This document shows positions 3,490 to 41,510 of a stretch of 42,881 nucleotides of DNA, one piece after another. The stretch lies in IMG/VR virus record IMGVR_UViG_3300044679_000070, positions 1 through 42,881 of that record. One strand, given 5' to 3'. The notes beneath the pieces are model-generated. The model had not been told where the DNA came from. It saw only the letters and a program-made list of their open reading frames with translations, and did not search any database. The number at the start of each line of letters is the position of its first letter. Positions within the stretch are counted from its first letter, which is position 1. The position numbers and the translations under genes are program-made. The stretch comes from a virus.

Positions 3490-3516
3490 CCCGCAGCGGC
3501 GCCGAGGCGCTGCGGG
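3490..3516 (+). other. 9-bp perfect hairpin overlapping the tRNA-like element
   Basis: CCCGCAGCG at 3490-3498 pairs perfectly with CGCTGCGGG at 3508-3516 across a 9-nt loop. The right arm shares five bases (3512-3516) with the 5' acceptor strand of the tRNA-like element, so the two folds exclude each other. No T-run follows, so it is not a standard terminator; it may end or process the upstream message, or act as a folding switch. Confidence 0.5.
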
Positions 3517-3595
3517 ATGGCCCAGCGGCTCAAGGCAGCCCCATCGGTGGTCCGCTTTCGGTGGGGAAGATCCCCGGTTCGAATCCGGGTCCCGC
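3512..3595 (+). tRNA. tRNA-like element with aberrant anticodon arm
   Basis: 84 nt. A 7-bp acceptor stem pairs 3512-3518 (GCGGGAT) with 3589-3595 (GTCCCGC). A 5-bp T stem (CCCGG/CCGGG) encloses TTCGAAT at 3578-3584, a perfect T loop. The D arm has a 3-bp stem (GCC 3520-3522, GGC 3534-3536) around CAGCGGCTCAA with the usual GG, much like tRNA-Ser/Leu. Between them no normal 5+7+5 anticodon arm forms: CCCCA (3540-3543 with 3539) pairs with TGGGG (3562-3566) leaving an 18-nt loop, or an arm with one mismatch at 3551-3567 would place TCG in the anticodon position but leave the D region far too long. Either a degenerate tRNA, a decoy, or one with an unusual anticodon region. Confidence 0.5.
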
Positions 3596-3631
3596 GGCGA
3601 TTCGCCTCGGCGTGATCGCAGGCGAGTCGCC
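3596..3631 (+). other. 12-bp hairpin directly after the tRNA-like element
   Basis: GGCGATTCGCCT at 3596-3607 pairs with AGGCGAGTCGCC at 3620-3631 with a single T-G wobble and a 12-nt loop. It starts on the base after the acceptor stem. No T-run follows. It may terminate by another route or guide 3' processing of the tRNA-like RNA. From here to 3684 I see no further gene or signal. Confidence 0.45.
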
Positions 3632-21051: not shown

Positions 21052-21140
21052 ACTGGCGCGACGGGGACTGGCTCGACGTCATGCACACGCCGCCATCACG
21101 CGGGTTGTGGTGGTGCCCTGAGCAGATCGCGAGCGACTGA
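21048..21140 (+). CDS. 30-residue coupled micro-gene
   Basis: Encodes MNWRDGDWLDVMHTPPSRGL followed by WWCPEQIASD. Start overlaps the previous stop as ATGA and its own stop overlaps the next ATG as TGATG, so it fills the gap in a fully coupled chain. Trp-rich (five Trp in 30 residues). Unknown function; could serve mostly for coupling. Confidence 0.5.
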   Translation: MNWRDGDWLDVMHTPPSRGLWWCPEQIASD

Positions 21141-21667
21141 TGGAAGCGACGCCCGGCGGTTGCCCGCTGTCCGCGATCGAACTCTCCGCGGTCGAACTCC
21201 TGGCCGAAGGGCTGGCGTACAAGGAGATCGGCGCGCGACTGAATCGGTCGCCGTCCACGATCCGCACTCATCTGCACCACGTCTACGTCAAGCTCGGGGT
21301 CAGCGATCGCGCTCAGGCCGTGCTCGCTGCTACTCGCGCGGGATGGATCGACTCGCCGGACCTTGACCCGTACGCGCAGCTGACGCTTCGTCTCGCTCGC
21401 GCCACCGAGGAGCTGTGCCGCGCGGTCCGCGAGCGGTCTAAGCTGACCGGCCCGCAGCGCGCGTATCTGAGCGCGTTCGACGCGCTGCTTTACGCGCGGA
21501 CGGATGAGGACAAGATCGCTGCGCGTGAGGGCATGCAGGCGGCGCTCGGCGTGGTTCTCGGTGACGCGGGCGTGCCGGACCGTCCGCGCAGGCAGCGTGA
21601 TCTGGTGGAGCTGCTCGTCGGCTACGCGGACCGGTTCGCGGAGCCGCGATTGAGGAGCGCGGCGTGA
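21140..21667 (+). CDS. LuxR-type helix-turn-helix protein
   Basis: 175 residues. Residues 9-68 form a GerE/LuxR-like HTH: LSAIELSAVELLAEGLAYKE, IGARLNRSPSTIRTHLHHVY, KLGVSDRAQAVLAA. The rest is helical and contains no receiver or ligand domain. Likely DNA-binding; could regulate late genes or be a small-terminase-like protein displaced from its usual place, but nothing decides. Flanked by TGATG couplings on both sides. Confidence 0.7.
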   Translation: MEATPGGCPLSAIELSAVELLAEGLAYKEIGARLNRSPSTIRTHLHHVYVKLGVSDRAQAVLAATRAGWIDSPDLDPYAQLTLRLARATEELCRAVRERSKLTGPQRAYLSAFDALLYARTDEDKIAAREGMQAALGVVLGDAGVPDRPRRQRDLVELLVGYADRFAEPRLRSAA

Positions 21668-26769: not shown

Positions 26770-27210
26770 CTAGCAGCTGGACGCGGCGGCCTTGTACCAA
26801 GCCGGCAGCTCTCCGATGGCGATGTCGTGCTCGGCGGCGACGACTGTGGAGTAGGGCTCGGTCTCCTCGATGTTCCGTAGTACGCACGCGCATTGGGTGA
26901 ACGTGGGGCCGGACTGCTCGCAAGTCACGTCGAACGCCGATTCGAACGAGGATGGGTACTGCGACTCGTAGCCTGCACCTGTGTTGCCGGTCGCGCCAGT
27001 TCCGGTGTTGCCCGTGAAGCCGGTGCCGGTGTTCCCGGTCGACCCGGTTGCGCCCGTGAAGCCGGTGGCTCCGGTCCCGGTTGCGCCGGTCGCGCCCGTT
27101 GATGCGGGCGGCGGCGTGCTCGGGGTCACCGTGACCGTCTTGGTGGCGCCCCCGCATCCCACCAGGGCTACAGCGGCAGCGGCGAGTAACGCGGCTGCGA
27201 GGTTCTTCAT
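26770..27210 (-). CDS. Lipoprotein with collagen-like Gly-x-Thr stretch
   Basis: 146 residues, ATG with GGGAGGG just upstream. Signal peptide MKNLAAALLAAAAVALVGCG with lipobox LVGC, so exported and lipid-anchored at the cell surface. Residues about 38-78 are Gly-x-Thr collagen-like triplets (TGATGATGTGATGFTGATGS and on). The C-terminal 65 residues have three Cys and resemble small extracellular domains (SAFDVTCEQSGPTFTQCACV). A surface protein displayed by the lysogen is the natural reading; role (exclusion, adhesion) unknown. Confidence 0.8.
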   Translation of the reverse strand: MKNLAAALLAAAAVALVGCGGATKTVTVTPSTPPPASTGATGATGTGATGFTGATGSTGNTGTGFTGNTGTGATGNTGAGYESQYPSSFESAFDVTCEQSGPTFTQCACVLRNIEETEPYSTVVAAEHDIAIGELPAWYKAAASSC

Positions 27211-27252: not shown

Positions 27253-28314
27253 TTAGGAGGCCGACCTGCGGATGGCCACGGTGCTGAATCCACTGCTTGG
27301 AACGAAGCAGTACAGCCGCAGATTGGCGGAGTAGATCGTGTAGTGCTTGTCGATGCAGGTGTTCACGAACCCATCGGTTCCCTGATAGATCCGCTCGCCG
27401 GGACTCCAGATGCGGGAGCTGAATACCTGGCCCGAGAAGAGGACGGTGGCGCCGAAACGAACGGTCAGGCTGTACCGGTAGTTGTAGGCCCGGTTGAGAG
27501 CTGGGGCGAAGAGGCCAATCTCCCAACCCTTTGCGCTCGAGGATGTCTCATTCTCGAAGGTCAGGCCGGGCAGCGTGGGGAAGCGCCCAAGGTCATAGCA
27601 TGGCGTCAGGTCTACCACCGCTCTGCGGTGCTCGCCGCTCAGGACCGCTGTCAGCTGACCGGCCGATTGGAGCCAACAGTTCCCTGCCGGCGGATTCAGG
27701 ACCATCGCCGCAGCGAACTCGTTGGTCGAGACGTGGAAGTCCTCGGCCTCGTTGTGGTATTTGAAGGTTGGCGTCTGTCCGGCGACGGCGTTCACGGGTT
27801 GGGAGACGGACTGGTCACAGGTCACGGCCGTCTCGGCACCGCTCGTCCCGAACGTCTCGACGGTCGTCTGATACGTCACAACCACGAGGAGCGCCGGGTT
27901 GGTGGGTGCAGCCGTGAACGTGGCCAGAAGCGACGGATATGGCGCCAGGTTCCGCGGGTAGTCTGCCGCGGGAACCTGCTCGGAAGAGATGGTCTGGCTC
28001 GTCGCGGAGTTCTCGACGGAGAAGGTCATCGTGCCTGGGATTGGGCCGCTGTCCGTGATCGTTCCCGTGTCGAGTTCGGCGTATACGGGTTCGGGTCCGA
28101 AGGCGACCTGCGATCCGACTTCTATCGATAGAGATGGACCGGTGACGGAGTCACAGGCGGACCCGGGCGGCGTCGCGGCTGCAGCTGGCGCCGCTATGAG
28201 AGCCGCCAGCGCGAGGCCGACGGTCAGGGCGCCCCCAAGCCGCCGGGCCGATCTACCACAAAACCGGTCTGATTTTCTTGCGCGCTCGTTTATGGGTGGG
28301 TACGGTTTGGTCAT
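27253..28314 (-). CDS. Secreted protein, unknown
   Basis: 353 residues. N-terminal basic region of about 28 residues, then a signal peptide core (GGALTVGLALAALIAAPAAA) with AAA-type cleavage. The mature part is beta-rich with six or more Cys (SACDSVTG, VTCDQSVSQ, GNCWLQSAG, TPCYDLG, NTCIDKHY, LRLYCFV), consistent with a disulphide-bonded extracellular protein. No family recognised. Leftward with the lipoprotein and zinc-ribbon genes, so probably lysogenic-conversion cargo. An internal start would shorten the unusually long n-region. Confidence 0.75.
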   Translation of the reverse strand: MTKPYPPINERARKSDRFCGRSARRLGGALTVGLALAALIAAPAAAATPPGSACDSVTGPSLSIEVGSQVAFGPEPVYAELDTGTITDSGPIPGTMTFSVENSATSQTISSEQVPAADYPRNLAPYPSLLATFTAAPTNPALLVVVTYQTTVETFGTSGAETAVTCDQSVSQPVNAVAGQTPTFKYHNEAEDFHVSTNEFAAAMVLNPPAGNCWLQSAGQLTAVLSGEHRRAVVDLTPCYDLGRFPTLPGLTFENETSSSAKGWEIGLFAPALNRAYNYRYSLTVRFGATVLFSGQVFSSRIWSPGERIYQGTDGFVNTCIDKHYTIYSANLRLYCFVPSSGFSTVAIRRSAS

Positions 28315-28385: not shown

Positions 28386-28604
28386 ATGGGGGACACGGAC
28401 GAGCGGCGACTCATAGTCCACCAGGGCGGTCACGGCGATGATGTGGCGACGAAGACCGCCGAGGCGTCGCGGGTTCTCGCGGAGCTGGCGGTCATGCTGC
28501 CCGCTTCGGACGTTTTGCAGGAGTCGGTGGAGGCGCTGTCGCGGTGTCTTTCTCGACGGCTGCGAGGAGTCCCGCCGCAACGAGCCGCTCGACCAGATCG
28601 TTGA
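28386..28604 (+). CDS. Small rightward protein antisense to the repressor 3' end
   Basis: 72 residues from an ATG with AAGGAGAG about 8 bp upstream. MGDTDERRLIVHQGGHGDDV followed by TKTAEASRVLAELAVMLPAS and LQESVEALSR looks like real helical protein; the last 20 residues are Arg-rich and lie opposite the repressor gene, overlapping its 3' end by 113 bp. Good ribosome site argues for, antisense overlap argues against. Confidence 0.45.
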   Translation: MGDTDERRLIVHQGGHGDDVATKTAEASRVLAELAVMLPASDVLQESVEALSRCLSRRLRGVPPQRAARPDR

Positions 28605-28971
28605 GCGACTGCTCGATGCGCGCGAGCGCGGCGGTTGTCGGGTCCTGGACCTCGAATGGGTCTGGGGTGCTGGTCTTGTCGGGTTCGGGAGCCATGAGAT
28701 CCGCGACATCGCACTCGAGGATTCGGGCGAGTTCCTCGAGCGTGTCGGGGTTCGGCTGGTGCAGGCCCTTCTCCCAGCGGTAGAGCTGGTTCTCGTTCAC
28801 GCGGCCGGACATCTGGCTGACGACATCGGGCCGGGATAGGTTCAGCGCTTCTCGGCGTTCGCGTATGCGTTCGCCCAGCCGTTCGAGGAAGGCGGCAGCC
28901 ATCAATTGCAGCCTAAGGCGCTGCGCGTGGCTTGTCCCCATCATTTGTCGCGACAGGTCTTGACGAGTCAT
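28492..28971 (-). CDS. Immunity repressor, XRE-family
   Basis: 159 residues. HTH at residues about 30-85 (LGERIRERREALNLSRPDVV, SQMSGRVNENQLYRWEKGL, PNPDTLEELARILECDVADL). Short C-terminal helix (ALARIEQSLNDLVERLVAAG) probably dimerises it; there is no LexA/CI-type peptidase domain, so induction is not by simple RecA-stimulated self-cleavage. Start at 28971 is favoured because the predicted leftward promoter places the transcript start about 3 nt upstream. Represses the divergent early promoter and keeps lysogeny. Confidence 0.8.
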   Translation of the reverse strand: MTRQDLSRQMMGTSHAQRLRLQLMAAAFLERLGERIRERREALNLSRPDVVSQMSGRVNENQLYRWEKGLHQPNPDTLEELARILECDVADLMAPEPDKTSTPDPFEVQDPTTAALARIEQSLNDLVERLVAAGLLAAVEKDTATAPPPTPAKRPKRAA

Positions 28972-29009
28972 TTCGCGAGTAGTATTGTCGCCACTAGATG
29001 ACGAGTCAA
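28960..29009. promoter_or_regulatory. Face-to-face promoters and twin operators of the immunity switch
   Basis: Rightward promoter: TTGACG (28960-28965), 17-bp spacer, TATTGT (28983-28988), start near 28995, ATG at 28998. Leftward promoter: TTGACT (complement of 29004-29009), 17-bp spacer, AATACT (complement of 28981-28986), start near 28974, ATG at 28971. The -10 boxes overlap by four bases, so only one promoter can be open at a time. The 10-bp word TGACGAGTCA (TGAC-N2-GTCA) occurs at 28961-28970 and 28999-29008, in each case covering one promoter's -35 and the opposite gene's start codon. These are the likely operators. Confidence 0.7.
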
Positions 29010-29243
29010 GCGGCCAATCAAATCGTGACGACCATCGGGCGCAACATCCGCTCCGCGCGGATCGCGGCAGGCCTCACTCAGCGAGCACTGGCCACCAAGC
29101 TGGGACTCGACATTCGGGCGGTGAATCGCTGGGAGCGCGCGGGCATCATGCCGAGCGCGCAGAACCTCGCGAAACTCGCCGATGAGCTTGGCCACGACCC
29201 AGGCTGGTTCTATACCGACCACGCCGAGCAGGCGGCGGCGTGA
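28998..29243 (+). CDS. Cro-like helix-turn-helix protein
   Basis: 81 residues, one XRE-type HTH: IGRNIRSARIAAGLTQRALA, TKLGLDIRAVNRWERAGIMP, NLAKLADELGHDPGWFYTD. First gene of the rightward early operon and divergent from the repressor. The start codon lies about 3 nt from the predicted transcript start, so the message is close to leaderless. Likely turns off the repressor promoter and favours lytic growth. Confidence 0.8.
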   Translation: MTSQAANQIVTTIGRNIRSARIAAGLTQRALATKLGLDIRAVNRWERAGIMPSAQNLAKLADELGHDPGWFYTDHAEQAAA

Positions 29244-32431: not shown

Positions 32432-32604
32432 CGACCGTCCCGCACCGCATCAGCACCTACCGCGAAGACGGCAGCGCATCAGCTCGCCGTCAGCAGCGCG
32501 GTCACCTCAAGCGCAACGACCACGTCTCCGCGCGCGAACTCCGCCGCGAGCAAGAACGCCGTGAACGCAAACACCGCGCACGGTGGCTCGAGGTGACGGC
32601 ATGA
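32428..32604 (+). CDS. Small very basic protein
   Basis: 58 residues, about one third Arg/Lys/His (RRQQRGHLKRNDHVSARELR, REQERRERKHRARW). Probably binds nucleic acid or is disordered. Coupled on both sides. Confidence 0.5.
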   Translation: MTTVPHRISTYREDGSASARRQQRGHLKRNDHVSARELRREQERRERKHRARWLEVTA

Positions 32605-33470
32605 CCGCGCCGGGGATCCACATCATGAGCGCCGAGGCGTATCACGGCGATCCGTGTGACCGGCCGAGCCTGAGCGCGTCGATCGCTCACATCCTGCTCG
32701 ACAAGAGCCCGCTGCACGCCTGGTACGCGCACCCGCGTTTGAACCCCGACTTCGTCCGCAAGGAAGAGAAGAAGTTCGACGTCGGCACCGCCGCGCACGC
32801 CCTCCTGTTCGAGGACACCCAGCCCGCGATCATCGACGCGCCCGACTGGCGAACGAAGAAGGCGCAAGAAGAACGCGACGAAGCACGCGCCGCCGGCCTC
32901 ACACCTCTGCTCGCCAAGCAAGCCGTCGAGGTGACCGCCATGGTCGACGCAGTCCGCGGCCAGCTCGACGAGCTCGACATCGACCCGCCCCTGTTCCGAG
33001 AAGGGACGCCCGAGAAGACGCTCGTGTGGGAAGACACCGGCGGCGTCATCTGCCGCGCGCGCGTGGACTACCTCCACGACGACTACACCGCGATCGACGA
33101 CATGAAGACCGCCGGGCGGTCCGCGAACCCGTTCCAATGGACGCGCAACACGCTCTGGTCGATCGGAGCAGACGTGCAGGTCGGATTCAACCGCCGGGCC
33201 GTGAAAAAGCTCACCGGCCAGGACGCATGGTTCCGGTACGTCGTCGTCGAGACCGCGCCGCCTTACGCCCTCTCGATCGTGGACCTCTCACCCGCCGCTC
33301 TGGCGCTCGCTGACGCGAAGGTCGAGAAGGCGATCGCCATCTGGCGCCGCTGCCTGGACACCGACGTCTGGCCGTCCTATCCGCAGCAGGTCGTGAGCGC
33401 CGAGCCGCTCCCGTGGCACGAAGCCGCGTGGTTAGAGCAGCAGGCGATCGAAGAGGAGCTGGCCGCGTGA
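32601..33470 (+). CDS. RecE-like PD-(D/E)XK exonuclease
   Basis: 289 residues. Resects DNA ends for phage recombination. PSLSASIAHILLDKSPLHAW and GTAAHALLFED (His66) are typical of RecE/Cas4-like nucleases ('lSaS.i..l..sP.h', 'G.a.H.lll'). Active-site core: ICRARVDYLHDDYTAIDDMK with Asp156, Asp167 and Lys169. ATGA coupling before and GTGA after; the next gene is a P-loop ATPase, so the pair is likely one recombination unit. Confidence 0.8.
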   Translation: MTAPGIHIMSAEAYHGDPCDRPSLSASIAHILLDKSPLHAWYAHPRLNPDFVRKEEKKFDVGTAAHALLFEDTQPAIIDAPDWRTKKAQEERDEARAAGLTPLLAKQAVEVTAMVDAVRGQLDELDIDPPLFREGTPEKTLVWEDTGGVICRARVDYLHDDYTAIDDMKTAGRSANPFQWTRNTLWSIGADVQVGFNRRAVKKLTGQDAWFRYVVVETAPPYALSIVDLSPAALALADAKVEKAIAIWRRCLDTDVWPSYPQQVVSAEPLPWHEAAWLEQQAIEEELAA

Positions 33471-38038: not shown

Positions 38039-38904
38039 GCCAGTCGACTGCGATCGAGTGGACCGACGTGAGCTGGAACCCGGTGCACGGGTGCAGCAAG
38101 GTCAGCCCGGGATGCGCGCACTGTTACGCGGCGACGCTGAGCCTGCGATACGGGCAGACGAAGAAGCCGTGGACGCCAGCGAACGCTGCCGAGAACGTGA
38201 TGTTGAAGCCGCACAAGCTGCGGGAGCCGCTGAGCAACGCGAAGGAGTGGCGTGGCCTCGGCGCCGCAGCGGCGGCGGCTGGGATGGCGGACGGGAAGCT
38301 TGTGTTCGTCAACTCGACGAGCGATCTGTTCCACGAGGAAGTGCCGTCGACCTTCATCATCGACGTGTTCAACGTGATGGGGGAGGCGCGCCAGCACACG
38401 TTTCAGATCCTCACCAAGCGCCCCGAGCGGATGGCGAACATGCTGCGTTCATGGCCGCTGCGCGAGCACTGGCCGAACGTGTGGCTCGGCGTGTCGATCG
38501 AGAATCGGCGGTTCGCCGGTCGGGCGGACTGGCTCCGGCTAATCAGCCCGGCGGTGAGGTTCATCTCGGCCGAGCCGTTGCTGGGCCCGCTCGTTGGCAT
38601 GGAGAAGCGCCAGCAGGACTACCCGATCCGGGCTGGACGACCGCACGGTGTTGTTCAAGAGACGTGGCGCCCCGGGCTCGACCTGACCGGCATCGACTGG
38701 CTGATCATCGGCGGCGAGAGCGGCCCTGGACATCGTCGGATGGACTTGCAGCGGGCGCGGGACCTGAGAGACGCGGCGCAGCACGGGGGGACCGCCCTGT
38801 TCGTGAAGCAGCTCGGCGGAGCGCGCCCCGGAACCGAGCTGGAGGACCTGCCGGCTGACCTGCGTGTGCGCGAGTTTCCGACGCGGGCGGAGGCCACGGC
38901 GTGA
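38035..38904 (+). CDS. Phage Gp37/Gp68 family (DUF5131) protein
   Basis: 289 residues. IEWTDVSWNPVHGCSKVSPG then CAHCYAATLSLRYG is the family's hallmark N-terminus, with Cys20, Cys27 and Cys30 resembling a radical-SAM iron-sulphur site. TSDLFHEEVP, ILTKRPERM, LGVSIEN, FISAEPLLGPL and IIGGESGPGHR follow in the usual order. The family is widespread in phages; its reaction is unproven to my knowledge, DNA or nucleotide modification being suspected. Coupled to the helicase-methyltransferase gene by GTGA. Confidence 0.85.
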   Translation: MSQSTAIEWTDVSWNPVHGCSKVSPGCAHCYAATLSLRYGQTKKPWTPANAAENVMLKPHKLREPLSNAKEWRGLGAAAAAAGMADGKLVFVNSTSDLFHEEVPSTFIIDVFNVMGEARQHTFQILTKRPERMANMLRSWPLREHWPNVWLGVSIENRRFAGRADWLRLISPAVRFISAEPLLGPLVGMEKRQQDYPIRAGRPHGVVQETWRPGLDLTGIDWLIIGGESGPGHRRMDLQRARDLRDAAQHGGTALFVKQLGGARPGTELEDLPADLRVREFPTRAEATA

Positions 38905-41510
38905 GCGCGACGGCCATCGAGCCGGTTGGGTACGAGGAGTTCCTTCGGTCGAAGGCGACGATCGCGACGGTCGACGGGTTCGAGATCGACGACTCGGAGA
39001 TCAACTCGATCCTGAAGCCGCACCAGCGCGAGATCGTCCGGTGGGCTGTCGCTGGTGGCCGGCGGGCGATCTTCGCCGCGTTCGGTGTCGGGAAGAGCGT
39101 CTGCCAGCTCGAGGTCCTCCGTCTGACGTTGGAGCGCGCCGGCGGCCGCGGGCTGATCGTGTGCCCCCTCGGCGTGCAGCAGGAGTTCGCTCACGACGCC
39201 GCGATGCTCGGCATGGAACTCGTCCGGATCCGGACCACGGCCGAGGCGCAGGACCTGGAGCGCGGGCAGATCGCGATCACGAACTACGAGCCGGTCCGCG
39301 ACGGGAAGCTCGACCCCAACCACTTCACGGTTGTGACCCTCGACGAGGCCGCGATCCTCCGCTCGTTCGGCAGCAAGACCTACCAGTCGTTCCTCGCTCT
39401 TTTCGACGCGGTTCCTTACCGGTTCGTCGCGACCGCGACGCCGTCGCCGAACCGGTTCAAGGAGCTGATCCACTACGCCGCGTTCCTTGGGATCTTGGAC
39501 ACGGGGCAGGCGCTCACGCGGTTCTTCAAGCGCGATAGCTCGCAGGCGGGGAACCTCCAGCTGCTGGAGTCGCAGGAGGCGAACTTCTGGCTGTGGCTCG
39601 CGTCATGGTCGGTGTGGCTGCAGTCGCCGGCGGAGCTGTGTGTCTGCGTGTGCCACGCGGCGGCGGCCGGACCCGGGAGCTGCGACGCCTGCTGCTGCAG
39701 CCAATACGTCCTCCCGGAACTCCGTCTGGTCGAGCACCAGATCGCGGTCGATCACCTCGCGAACGTAAAGCTCGAGCGCGACGGGCAAACCTACCTGCTG
39801 AACGACGGGGCGTTGAGCTTGCAGGCCGCCGCCGCGGAGAAGCGGGCAACGATTTCGGCGCGTGTCGCAAAGCTGATCGAGATCGTCGACGGCTACCGGA
39901 AGGCGAACCCAGCAGAGGACCAGCTGATCGTCTACTGCCATCTCAACGATGAGCAGCACGCAATCGAGAAGGCCTTCGCCGAGCGGGGTCTGTCGTTCTC
40001 CTCGATCGACGGGTCACTCCCGACCGATGAGGTTGAGCGCAGGCTCGCCGAGTGGAAGGCCCGCAGCACGTACGCGCTGATCGGTAAGCCGGTAATGCTC
40101 GGCGTCGGGCTAAACCTGCAGCAGTGCAACAAGATGGTGTTCGTCGGGATCGACTACCGGTTCCACGACACCATCCAGGCCGTCCACCGCATCCAACGAT
40201 TCGGGCAGGCGCGACGGTGCGAGGTGCACCTTATCTACGCCGAATCTGAGCGGGAGATCCTCGCGACACTCCTCGGCAAGTGGCGTCAGCACGAGCAGCT
40301 GACCGCAACGATGAGCGACCTCATCGAGGCTCACGGCCTGTCCCGCTCAAGCGTCGAGACCGCGCTCGCCCGCTCGCTCGGCGTCGAGCGTGTCGAGGCA
40401 TCCGGTGAGAACTGGCGGCTCGTGAACAACGACTGCGTCCCCGAGGTCGCCAGCATGGAGGAGAACTCGGTTGGGCTGATCGTCACCAGCATCCCGTTCA
40501 GCAACCACTACGAGTACACGCCCGCCCACGAGGACCTCGGGTTCACCGAAAGCAACGAGCACTTCTGGCAGCAGATGAGCTTCCTCACCCCGCAGCTTCT
40601 CCGGGTGCTGCAACCGGGCCGGATCTACGCGTGCCACGTGAAGGACCGCATCCTGTTCGGAAACGTCACCGGCGCCGGGCTGCCCACGAGTTCGCCGTTT
40701 CATGCCGAGGCGATCATGCACGGCCGCGAGCACGGCTTCGACTACCTCGGAATGATCACCGTCGTCACCGACGTCGTCCGCGAGAACAACCAGACCTACC
40801 GGCTCGGATGGTCAGAGAACGCGAAGGACGGCACCAAGATGGGCGTCGGCTCGCCCGAGTACGTGCTGCTGTTCCACAAGCCGCAGTCCGACCGGTCCCG
40901 CGGGTACGCGGACGTGCCGGTCGCGAAAGACAAGGCGTCCTATAGCCGGTCGCGGTGGCAGGTCGACGCCCACGCCTTCTGGCGCTCCTCCGGTGACCGT
41001 CATCTCACCCCCGACGAGCTCGCGGCGCTGACACCCGAGCAGCTCTCTCGCACGTTCACCGAGCAATCCCTGCAGGCGGTGTACGACTACGAGTCGCACG
41101 TCCGGATCGGGGAGACACTCGACGACCGCGGCGCGCTGCCAGCGACGTTCATGTCGCTCGCGCCGGGGTCTCATCACCCGGACGTGTGGCACGACATCCA
41201 CCGGATGCGGACCCTCAACGGCGAGCAGTCCCGCCGGGGCCTGGTGCAGCACATCTGCCCGCTGCAGCTCGACCTGATTGACCGGCTCATCGTCCGCTAT
41301 TCCAACCCCGGCGATCTCGTCCTGGACCCGTTCAGCGGGCTTGCGTCCGTCCCCGTCCGGGCCCTGGCCGCCGGCCGGCGCGGCCTCGGGGTAGAGCTGA
41401 ACGCTGGCTACTTCCGTGACGGCGTGAAGTACTGCGAGGCCGCGGAGCGCGAGCACTCTATGCCGACCCTGTTCGACGCGCTTGACGCGGCCATGGAGCC
41501 AGCAGCGTGA
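38901..41510 (+). CDS. SF2 helicase-DNA methyltransferase fusion
   Basis: 869 residues. Residues about 35-470: SF2 helicase with PHQREIVRWA (Q-like), FGVGKS (motif I, Lys65), TLDEAAIL (II), ATATPSPN (III) and QAVHRIQRFGQ (VI), closest to SNF2/RapA types. A Cys-rich insert at 247-266 (CVCVCH ... CDACCC) may bind zinc. Residues about 505-850: methyltransferase of beta order, motif IV TSIPFS (529-534, variant of SPPY), then LDPFSGLAS (motif I, 808-816) and GRRGLGVELN. Methylates amino groups of A or C and may travel on DNA by the helicase part. GTG start in GTGA overlap. Confidence 0.85.
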   Translation: MSATAIEPVGYEEFLRSKATIATVDGFEIDDSEINSILKPHQREIVRWAVAGGRRAIFAAFGVGKSVCQLEVLRLTLERAGGRGLIVCPLGVQQEFAHDAAMLGMELVRIRTTAEAQDLERGQIAITNYEPVRDGKLDPNHFTVVTLDEAAILRSFGSKTYQSFLALFDAVPYRFVATATPSPNRFKELIHYAAFLGILDTGQALTRFFKRDSSQAGNLQLLESQEANFWLWLASWSVWLQSPAELCVCVCHAAAAGPGSCDACCCSQYVLPELRLVEHQIAVDHLANVKLERDGQTYLLNDGALSLQAAAAEKRATISARVAKLIEIVDGYRKANPAEDQLIVYCHLNDEQHAIEKAFAERGLSFSSIDGSLPTDEVERRLAEWKARSTYALIGKPVMLGVGLNLQQCNKMVFVGIDYRFHDTIQAVHRIQRFGQARRCEVHLIYAESEREILATLLGKWRQHEQLTATMSDLIEAHGLSRSSVETALARSLGVERVEASGENWRLVNNDCVPEVASMEENSVGLIVTSIPFSNHYEYTPAHEDLGFTESNEHFWQQMSFLTPQLLRVLQPGRIYACHVKDRILFGNVTGAGLPTSSPFHAEAIMHGREHGFDYLGMITVVTDVVRENNQTYRLGWSENAKDGTKMGVGSPEYVLLFHKPQSDRSRGYADVPVAKDKASYSRSRWQVDAHAFWRSSGDRHLTPDELAALTPEQLSRTFTEQSLQAVYDYESHVRIGETLDDRGALPATFMSLAPGSHHPDVWHDIHRMRTLNGEQSRRGLVQHICPLQLDLIDRLIVRYSNPGDLVLDPFSGLASVPVRALAAGRRGLGVELNAGYFRDGVKYCEAAEREHSMPTLFDALDAAMEPAA

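Follow-up and report, generated by a model that had tools for sequence, protein, structure and literature searches.

How can two opposing regulatory genes, each with its own promoter, be served by the same 50 bases of DNA, and what kind of decision might such an arrangement make? The question is raised by a viral record, IMGVR_UViG_3300044679_000070 of IMG/VR, all 42,881 nucleotides of which we call "the window," and within it, by the element at 28960-29009 (TTGACGAGTCATTTCGCGAGTAGTATTGTCGCCACTAGATGACGAGTCAA), where two divergent genes for HTH proteins begin. The original prediction for this locus was a symmetric immunity switch. Here, we have taken that idea apart into its pieces—the genes, the promoters, the starts of translation, and the repeated words that might be operators—and the pieces deserve different degrees of belief. 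Taken as a whole, the element is, we think it fairly probable, the lysis-lysogeny (immunity) switch of a temperate phage, probably an actinobacterial one, operating on a bidirectional sigma70-type promoter.

Two Regulators at the Head of an Early Operon

Leftward from the element, rep (28492-28971, minus strand) encodes a 159-aa HTH_3 repressor-like protein (HTH_3, E=7e-10; PHROG transcriptional repressor) that is extended by 23 residues at its N terminus and is predicted to have a helix at its C terminus; rightward, a cro-like gene (28998-29243, plus strand) encodes an 81-aa HTH_3 protein (E=1e-13) with the fold of P22 c2 and 434 Cro. AlphaFold places an HTH domain in both (mean pLDDT 71 for Rep; pLDDT 86 for the Cro-like protein), and the Foldseek neighbors are P22 c2, 434 Cro, C.AhdI, SinR, and BldD-type domains, with P22 c2, C.AhdI, and 434 Cro among those of the Cro-like model. 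A profile comparison puts the identity of the two proteins at 21%, and their recognition helices are unlike (VNENQLYRW vs. LDIRAVNRW).

The cro-like gene leads a rightward run that holds a RecE-like exonuclease (32583-33470, plus strand; PHROG exonuclease VIII, E=3e-53), an AAA ATPase, a replication initiation protein, a DnaC-like loader, and a helicase/methylase. Divergent HTH regulators, one of them heading an early operon, are what a rep/cro switch consists of, and this much of the original prediction, a repressor and a Cro-like protein in an immunity-type switch, is supported by the arrangement of the genes. Could the pair instead be regulators of some other kind, such as a restriction-modification controller or the regulator of a defense or toxin-antitoxin system, with no immunity switch at all? 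C.AhdI and other controller proteins do have similar folds, and there are weak PADLOC matches to HTH-containing regulators, but matches of this sort arise for all HTH_3 proteins, no recognizable restriction or toxin gene adjoins the pair, and the run that the cro side enters is a classic early operon, all of which leaves such a pair very improbable.

Because homologues of the exonuclease come mostly from Mycobacterium and Gordonia phages and the helicase resembles those of Arthrobacter phages, the host is likely actinobacterial, as judged from these relatives. The helicase in question is an 869-aa fused DNA helicase/methyltransferase (38901-41510, plus strand), the gene for which is, over 1.4 kb, ~76% identical to DNA of Arthrobacter phages, Tiff81 and Seahorse among them. 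On the other side, downstream of rep on the minus strand, lie two candidates for surface proteins expressed in a lysogen: a lipoprotein-like product with GATGATG-type collagen-like repeats (26770-27210) and a product with a signal-peptide-like start (27253-28314).

Two Predicted Promoters Sharing One -10 Region

A promoter scan of 27.5-31 kb finds two sigma70-like promoters in the element, one per strand and each with 9/12 matches. The predicted promoter of cro, P_cro (28960-28988, plus strand), has the -35 box TTGACG (28960-28965) and the -10 box TATTGT (28983-28988), and that of rep, P_rep (28981-29009, minus strand), has TTGACT (29009-29004) and AATACT (28986-28981). Both -35 boxes match the consensus at 5/6 bases. 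The 17-bp spacers claimed for both promoters are present in the sequence, as are the four bases (28983-28986) that the -10 boxes were said to have in common, within a shared core at 28981-28988 (AGTATNNT). By the same rule (at least 9/12), P_cro and P_rep are the sole promoter-like sites in the whole 42.9-kb record; 60 dinucleotide shuffles gave a mean of 2.6 such sites and 0 divergent pairs with overlapping -10 boxes. An Rfam search gave no match.

The start codons, ATG at 28971-28969 (minus strand) for rep and ATG at 28998-29000 (plus strand) for cro, are 26 bp apart, and the genes diverge. With the usual 6-nt discriminator, transcription is predicted to begin at 28974 and 28995, each 3 nt ahead of its ATG, in agreement with the claim of starts about 3 nt before the ATG, which is itself a prediction from the position of the -10 box; for the plus strand, A28996 is as plausible as 28995. 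"Face-to-face," the term first applied to these promoters, is wrong. The minus-strand start (~28974) lies to the left of the plus-strand start (~28995), so that the transcripts diverge, at predicted positions ~21 bp apart, and a convergent class is not what the geometry describes. That is, by its predicted promoters, the element is of the overlapping-divergent class, now named bidirectional promoters, with divergent -10 boxes (28981-28986 and 28983-28988) that overlap here and in the one relative that we found.

The Same Element in a Second Phage

That relative is IMG/VR contig L003 (record G001, 48.5 kb), which encodes both proteins (64% identity for the Cro-like protein and 55% for Rep) and carries an element of equal length, TTGACTCGTCACGATGTGAGGAGTATGCTCGTCTACAGATGACGAGTCAA, so that the independent examples number two. 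Its promoters read TTGACT-17-TATGCT on the cro side and TTGACT-17-CATACT on the rep side. Thus, both 17-bp spacers are kept, as are the 9-nt distances from -10 box to start codon, the 28 bp between the repeated words (a 38-bp register), and AGTATNNT; the rep start codon is GTG. Between the two phages, 11/12 of the -35 positions, 5/6 of the start codon positions, and 6/8 of the -10 region are identical vs. 9/18 of the unconstrained positions, and on these counts, the predicted promoters are kept, while the filling between them drifts.

The cro -10 box fits TANNNT in both phages (TATTGT and TATGCT), and the rep -10 box does so in neither (AATACT and CATACT), for which reason P_cro would be expected to be the stronger of the two. 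The switch was called symmetric; in function, with only one -10 box fitting TANNNT, it is not.

At the DNA level, the stretch at 28654-29221 is common to the window and IMGVR_UViG_3300045837_000016 (~70%, blastn). This module and one brief match close to the helicase-loader genes are all that blastn finds between the window and G001, and because other DNA similarity between the two phages is nearly absent, the module appears to behave as a mosaic cassette. A tyrosine integrase is encoded in G001. In the window record, possibly an incomplete one, neither PF00589 nor PF00239, the two integrase families tested, has a match, and it is therefore from the relative that we infer a temperate lifestyle for the window phage.

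Where Translation Begins

No Shine-Dalgarno sequence precedes the rep or the cro start in the window, although one is present at the majority of the other genes tested in this phage. The distance from the -10 box to the start codon is 9 nt at all four starts in the two phages, and transcription should therefore start 0-3 nt before the start codon. In Mycobacterium tuberculosis, more than a fifth of expressed genes have their transcription start no more than 5 bp from the start codon, and TANNNT is centered 7-12 bp upstream of the start site (PMC3898074); from that work, we have taken both the definition of leaderless (a transcription start within 5 nt of the start codon) and the placement of the -10 box. 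By this definition, both genes fall in the leaderless class, insofar as a -10 box predicts placement: the predicted start lies at most 5 nt from the start codon, and the missing Shine-Dalgarno sequences fit mRNAs that are leaderless or nearly so.

Two near-leaderless genes had been proposed, and the two proposals now differ in standing. The cro start is well supported by a conserved ATG and, in the window, an in-frame TAG directly before it, and a near-leaderless cro mRNA is likely. For rep, where the 23-residue extension is an open frame that is partly conserved, a near-leaderless mRNA is just probable. Excess synonymous conservation was not significant either at the start of cro (p=0.07) or for rep (p=0.57).

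Suppose, then, that Rep starts internally, at Met24 (28902) or at Met10 or Met11, with a leader of 30-70 nt on the rep mRNA and cro alone leaderless, in which case the left word would cover only the -35 box of P_cro and the start region of P_rep. Substitutions in rep codons 2-23 are indeed spread evenly over codon positions (5, 8, and 7), GC3 is lower there (0.64 vs. 0.82-0.85), AlphaFold confidence is low for residues 1-20, and CTTAGG is conserved 9 nt upstream of codon 24. However, the codon-position difference from the remainder of rep is not significant (p=0.31), no good Shine-Dalgarno sequence precedes the internal starts, with CTTAGG itself at background (-2.4 and -3.1 kcal/mol against a background median of -2.5), and the extension has 13/22 identical residues in a frame that stays open without indels in both phages. 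We think an internal start unlikely, if well worth keeping in mind. The block kept in both phages right before codon 24 is CTTAGG-N-TGCA (28907-28917, minus strand), a poor Shine-Dalgarno sequence in which Arg is encoded by AGG.

Are the Repeated Words Operators?

The original prediction saw twin operators in two identical 10-bp words, and there are exactly two copies of TGACGAGTCA, at 28961-28970 and 28999-29008. The left candidate operator, O_L, lies over the -35 box of P_cro and the start codon of rep, and 8/10 of its bases are kept in L003 (TGACTCGTCA); the right one, O_R, lies over the -35 box of P_rep and the start codon of cro and is identical in L003. Each word was said to cover the opposite start codon; the overlap is real but takes in just two of the three codon bases (TG). 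The palindromic form, TGACNNGTCA, has exactly two sites per record in the window and in G001, all of them in this element, and with two such sites in the record, we do not find the three operators that a lambda-type region has between repressor and cro.

How much should one make of a palindrome that had few other choices? In each word, TGAC is part of the -35 box, two further palindromic bases fall in the start codon of the opposite gene, and 2 bases are extra. Six of the eight palindromic bases are thus already set by other signals, which makes TGACNNGTCA weaker evidence for an operator than it appears to be. By chance, both words would carry these extra bases with a probability of ~0.003, or ~0.0005 if their centers are also to match.

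One may therefore ask whether the bidirectional promoter is real and the word no operator at all, being a by-product, on both sides, of laying the -35 sequence TTGAC over an opposite Met-Thr start, ATGAC, with the true operators elsewhere, for instance, in the shared -10 core. Beyond the bases that are forced, it is not rare in these records to find two identical imperfect (4+4) palindromes within 60 bp of each other, and the core, GAG-N-AGTAT-NN-TCG, is likewise conserved. Against this, the extra palindrome bases are conserved at 4/4 positions vs. 9/18 at the other unconstrained positions, the word is absent elsewhere in both records, the words of L003 make a perfect 14-bp inverted repeat, and in the left copy, the phages disagree at the two center bases (GA vs. 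TC) but not in the arms. The by-product explanation is, in our estimation, less probable than its opposite, although of all the alternatives considered here, it is the one that we take most seriously.

On this comparison of two phages, the pseudo-palindromic words are the likeliest places for one of the HTH proteins, or both, to bind. That TGACGAGTCA is the operator for both is unproven, because the recognition helices differ and because the palindrome is mostly forced. Of the twin operators, then, the pair of words, with arms kept in L003, is real, and the dual-protein role is what goes unproven. Since neither word is confined to one promoter, a protein bound at either would affect both promoters, and identical sites alone cannot confer opposite preferences on Rep and Cro.

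Other possible sites were considered. A palindrome at 28947 (TGTCGCGACA), suspected of being a third operator, was rejected, as it is not conserved in L003, and TCGTNACGA, inside cro, is conserved but has its left partner in G001 only. A possible third protein site is TCGTGACGA at 29023-29031 (cro codons 9-12), which is identical in L003; only G001 has an inverted partner for it, at the left word.

How Unusual Is the Arrangement?

The claim of unusual compactness holds up against a small sample: the gap between the divergent HTH or repressor/cro genes of four actinophages is 73 bp in B3, 159 bp in Adephagia, 310 bp in TillyBobJoe, and 362 bp in Seahorse, next to which 26 bp is compact. We scanned a collection of 2.9 million viral contigs for the word pair, for the layout of -35 boxes and starts with 24-28 bp spacing, for that layout with both -10 boxes, and with relaxed -35 boxes. 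Among the matches listed, the exact geometry gave no further example with two HTH genes, and L003 was the only true relative; a match in L010 was rejected as a repeat inside coding sequence, and none of the remaining relaxed -35 matches listed has two substantial HTH-like ORFs. Protein searches of phages and genomes (genome contigs with the Cro protein as query) found no closer relative, and in the open-licence literature, we found no description of a phage switch on a shared -10 box.

Relation to Known Switches and Promoters

The bidirectional promoters described by Warman, Grainger, and colleagues have shared -10 boxes and divergent starts 7-25 bp apart, commonly 18, 10, or 23 bp (PMC10268837, PMC12825309). 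The element resembles them in offering RNA polymerase two orientations on a short sequence, with overlapping -10 boxes and starts at a predicted ~21 bp, and differs in that its -35 boxes match at 5/6 with 17-bp spacing and both transcripts encode regulators that start immediately. It had been claimed that this layout makes repressor and Cro-like protein mutually exclusive even before protein binding. At five bidirectional promoters, Warman et al. saw no substantial competition between polymerases at basal strength and saw competition only after one side was strengthened or activated (PMC12825309). Exclusivity from layout alone would hence depend on promoter strength, and the claim is not established.

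Among phages, one comparison is the O_R region of lambda (cI/cro, P_RM/P_R), which likewise has divergent repressor and Cro-like genes, a cro side that runs into an early operon, and a leaderless repressor mRNA. Lambda has three operators and promoters that do not overlap. Here, in contrast, the promoters overlap almost completely, and there are only two candidate sites. In telomere phage PY54, the cI and cro mRNAs are both leaderless and arise from divergent promoters, as we predict here. Its Cro acts at one operator only, OR3, at a distance of up to 40 bp from the promoter of cro, and the text consulted mentions no shared -10 box (PMC4488713). The Pc/Pr conjugation switch of pLS20 also sets a regulator gene against an opposing operon, with overlapping divergent promoters of unequal strength, but it belongs to a plasmid, relies on Rco as its sole regulator and on a DNA loop that joins two operators, and has a long 5' leader (PMC4207663). 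Mycobacteriophage BPs, an actinophage with divergent P_rep and P_R, has short palindromic operator words (12 bp) near its promoters; there, however, O_R is placed between the -10 and -35 boxes of P_R and O_Rep downstream of P_rep, other sites are scattered through the genome, and immunity is integration-dependent (PMC4557955).

What we have, then, is a very compact rep/cro-type switch on a bidirectional promoter, a variant of a type of switch already known, in which the assignment of operators and exclusivity before protein binding are hypotheses. How might it work? RNA polymerase would have two overlapping ways of binding the 50 bp: facing right, it would express the Cro-like gene together with the early operon for replication and recombination, and facing left, the repressor, from mRNAs that would start 0-3 nt ahead of the start codon and be translated with little or no leader. 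Because each word covers one -35 box and the first transcribed bases of the other promoter, a protein bound there would hinder both promoters, most of all the one whose -35 box lies beneath it. The choice of direction may then come from modest asymmetries (the stronger cro -10 box, different flanks, and different recognition helices) along with polymerase competition once one side is activated.

A bolder version can be imagined. On each side of the shared -10 box, one set of ten bases would act as operator, as the -35 box of one gene, and as the start codon of the leaderless gene opposite; in this minimal switch, lysis or lysogeny would be set mainly by the orientation of a single polymerase, with the proteins only locking the choice. 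We put this forward as speculation, more doubtful than any alternative above except that of unrelated regulators. Still, the locus joins two lines that are separate in the literature found, bidirectional promoters with a shared -10 box and the lysis-lysogeny switches of phages. Within 50 bp, it combines a pair of promoters, a pair of start codons, and a pair of candidate operators, and it is conserved as a cassette in two phages whose DNA otherwise has little in common; such an element would cleanly test competition between polymerase orientations as the sole bias of a binary decision. It would also be a very small part for synthetic toggles.

Elsewhere in the window, there is a tRNA-Arg gene (anticodon TCG; 3511-3598, plus strand) in the left part of the record and a phospholipase-D-like protein (PF13091; 24615-25208, plus strand). 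Near the lysis genes, a 175-aa product (21140-21667, plus strand) matches a phage sigma-factor family (phrog_3282, E=4e-12) and might redirect polymerase to late promoters.
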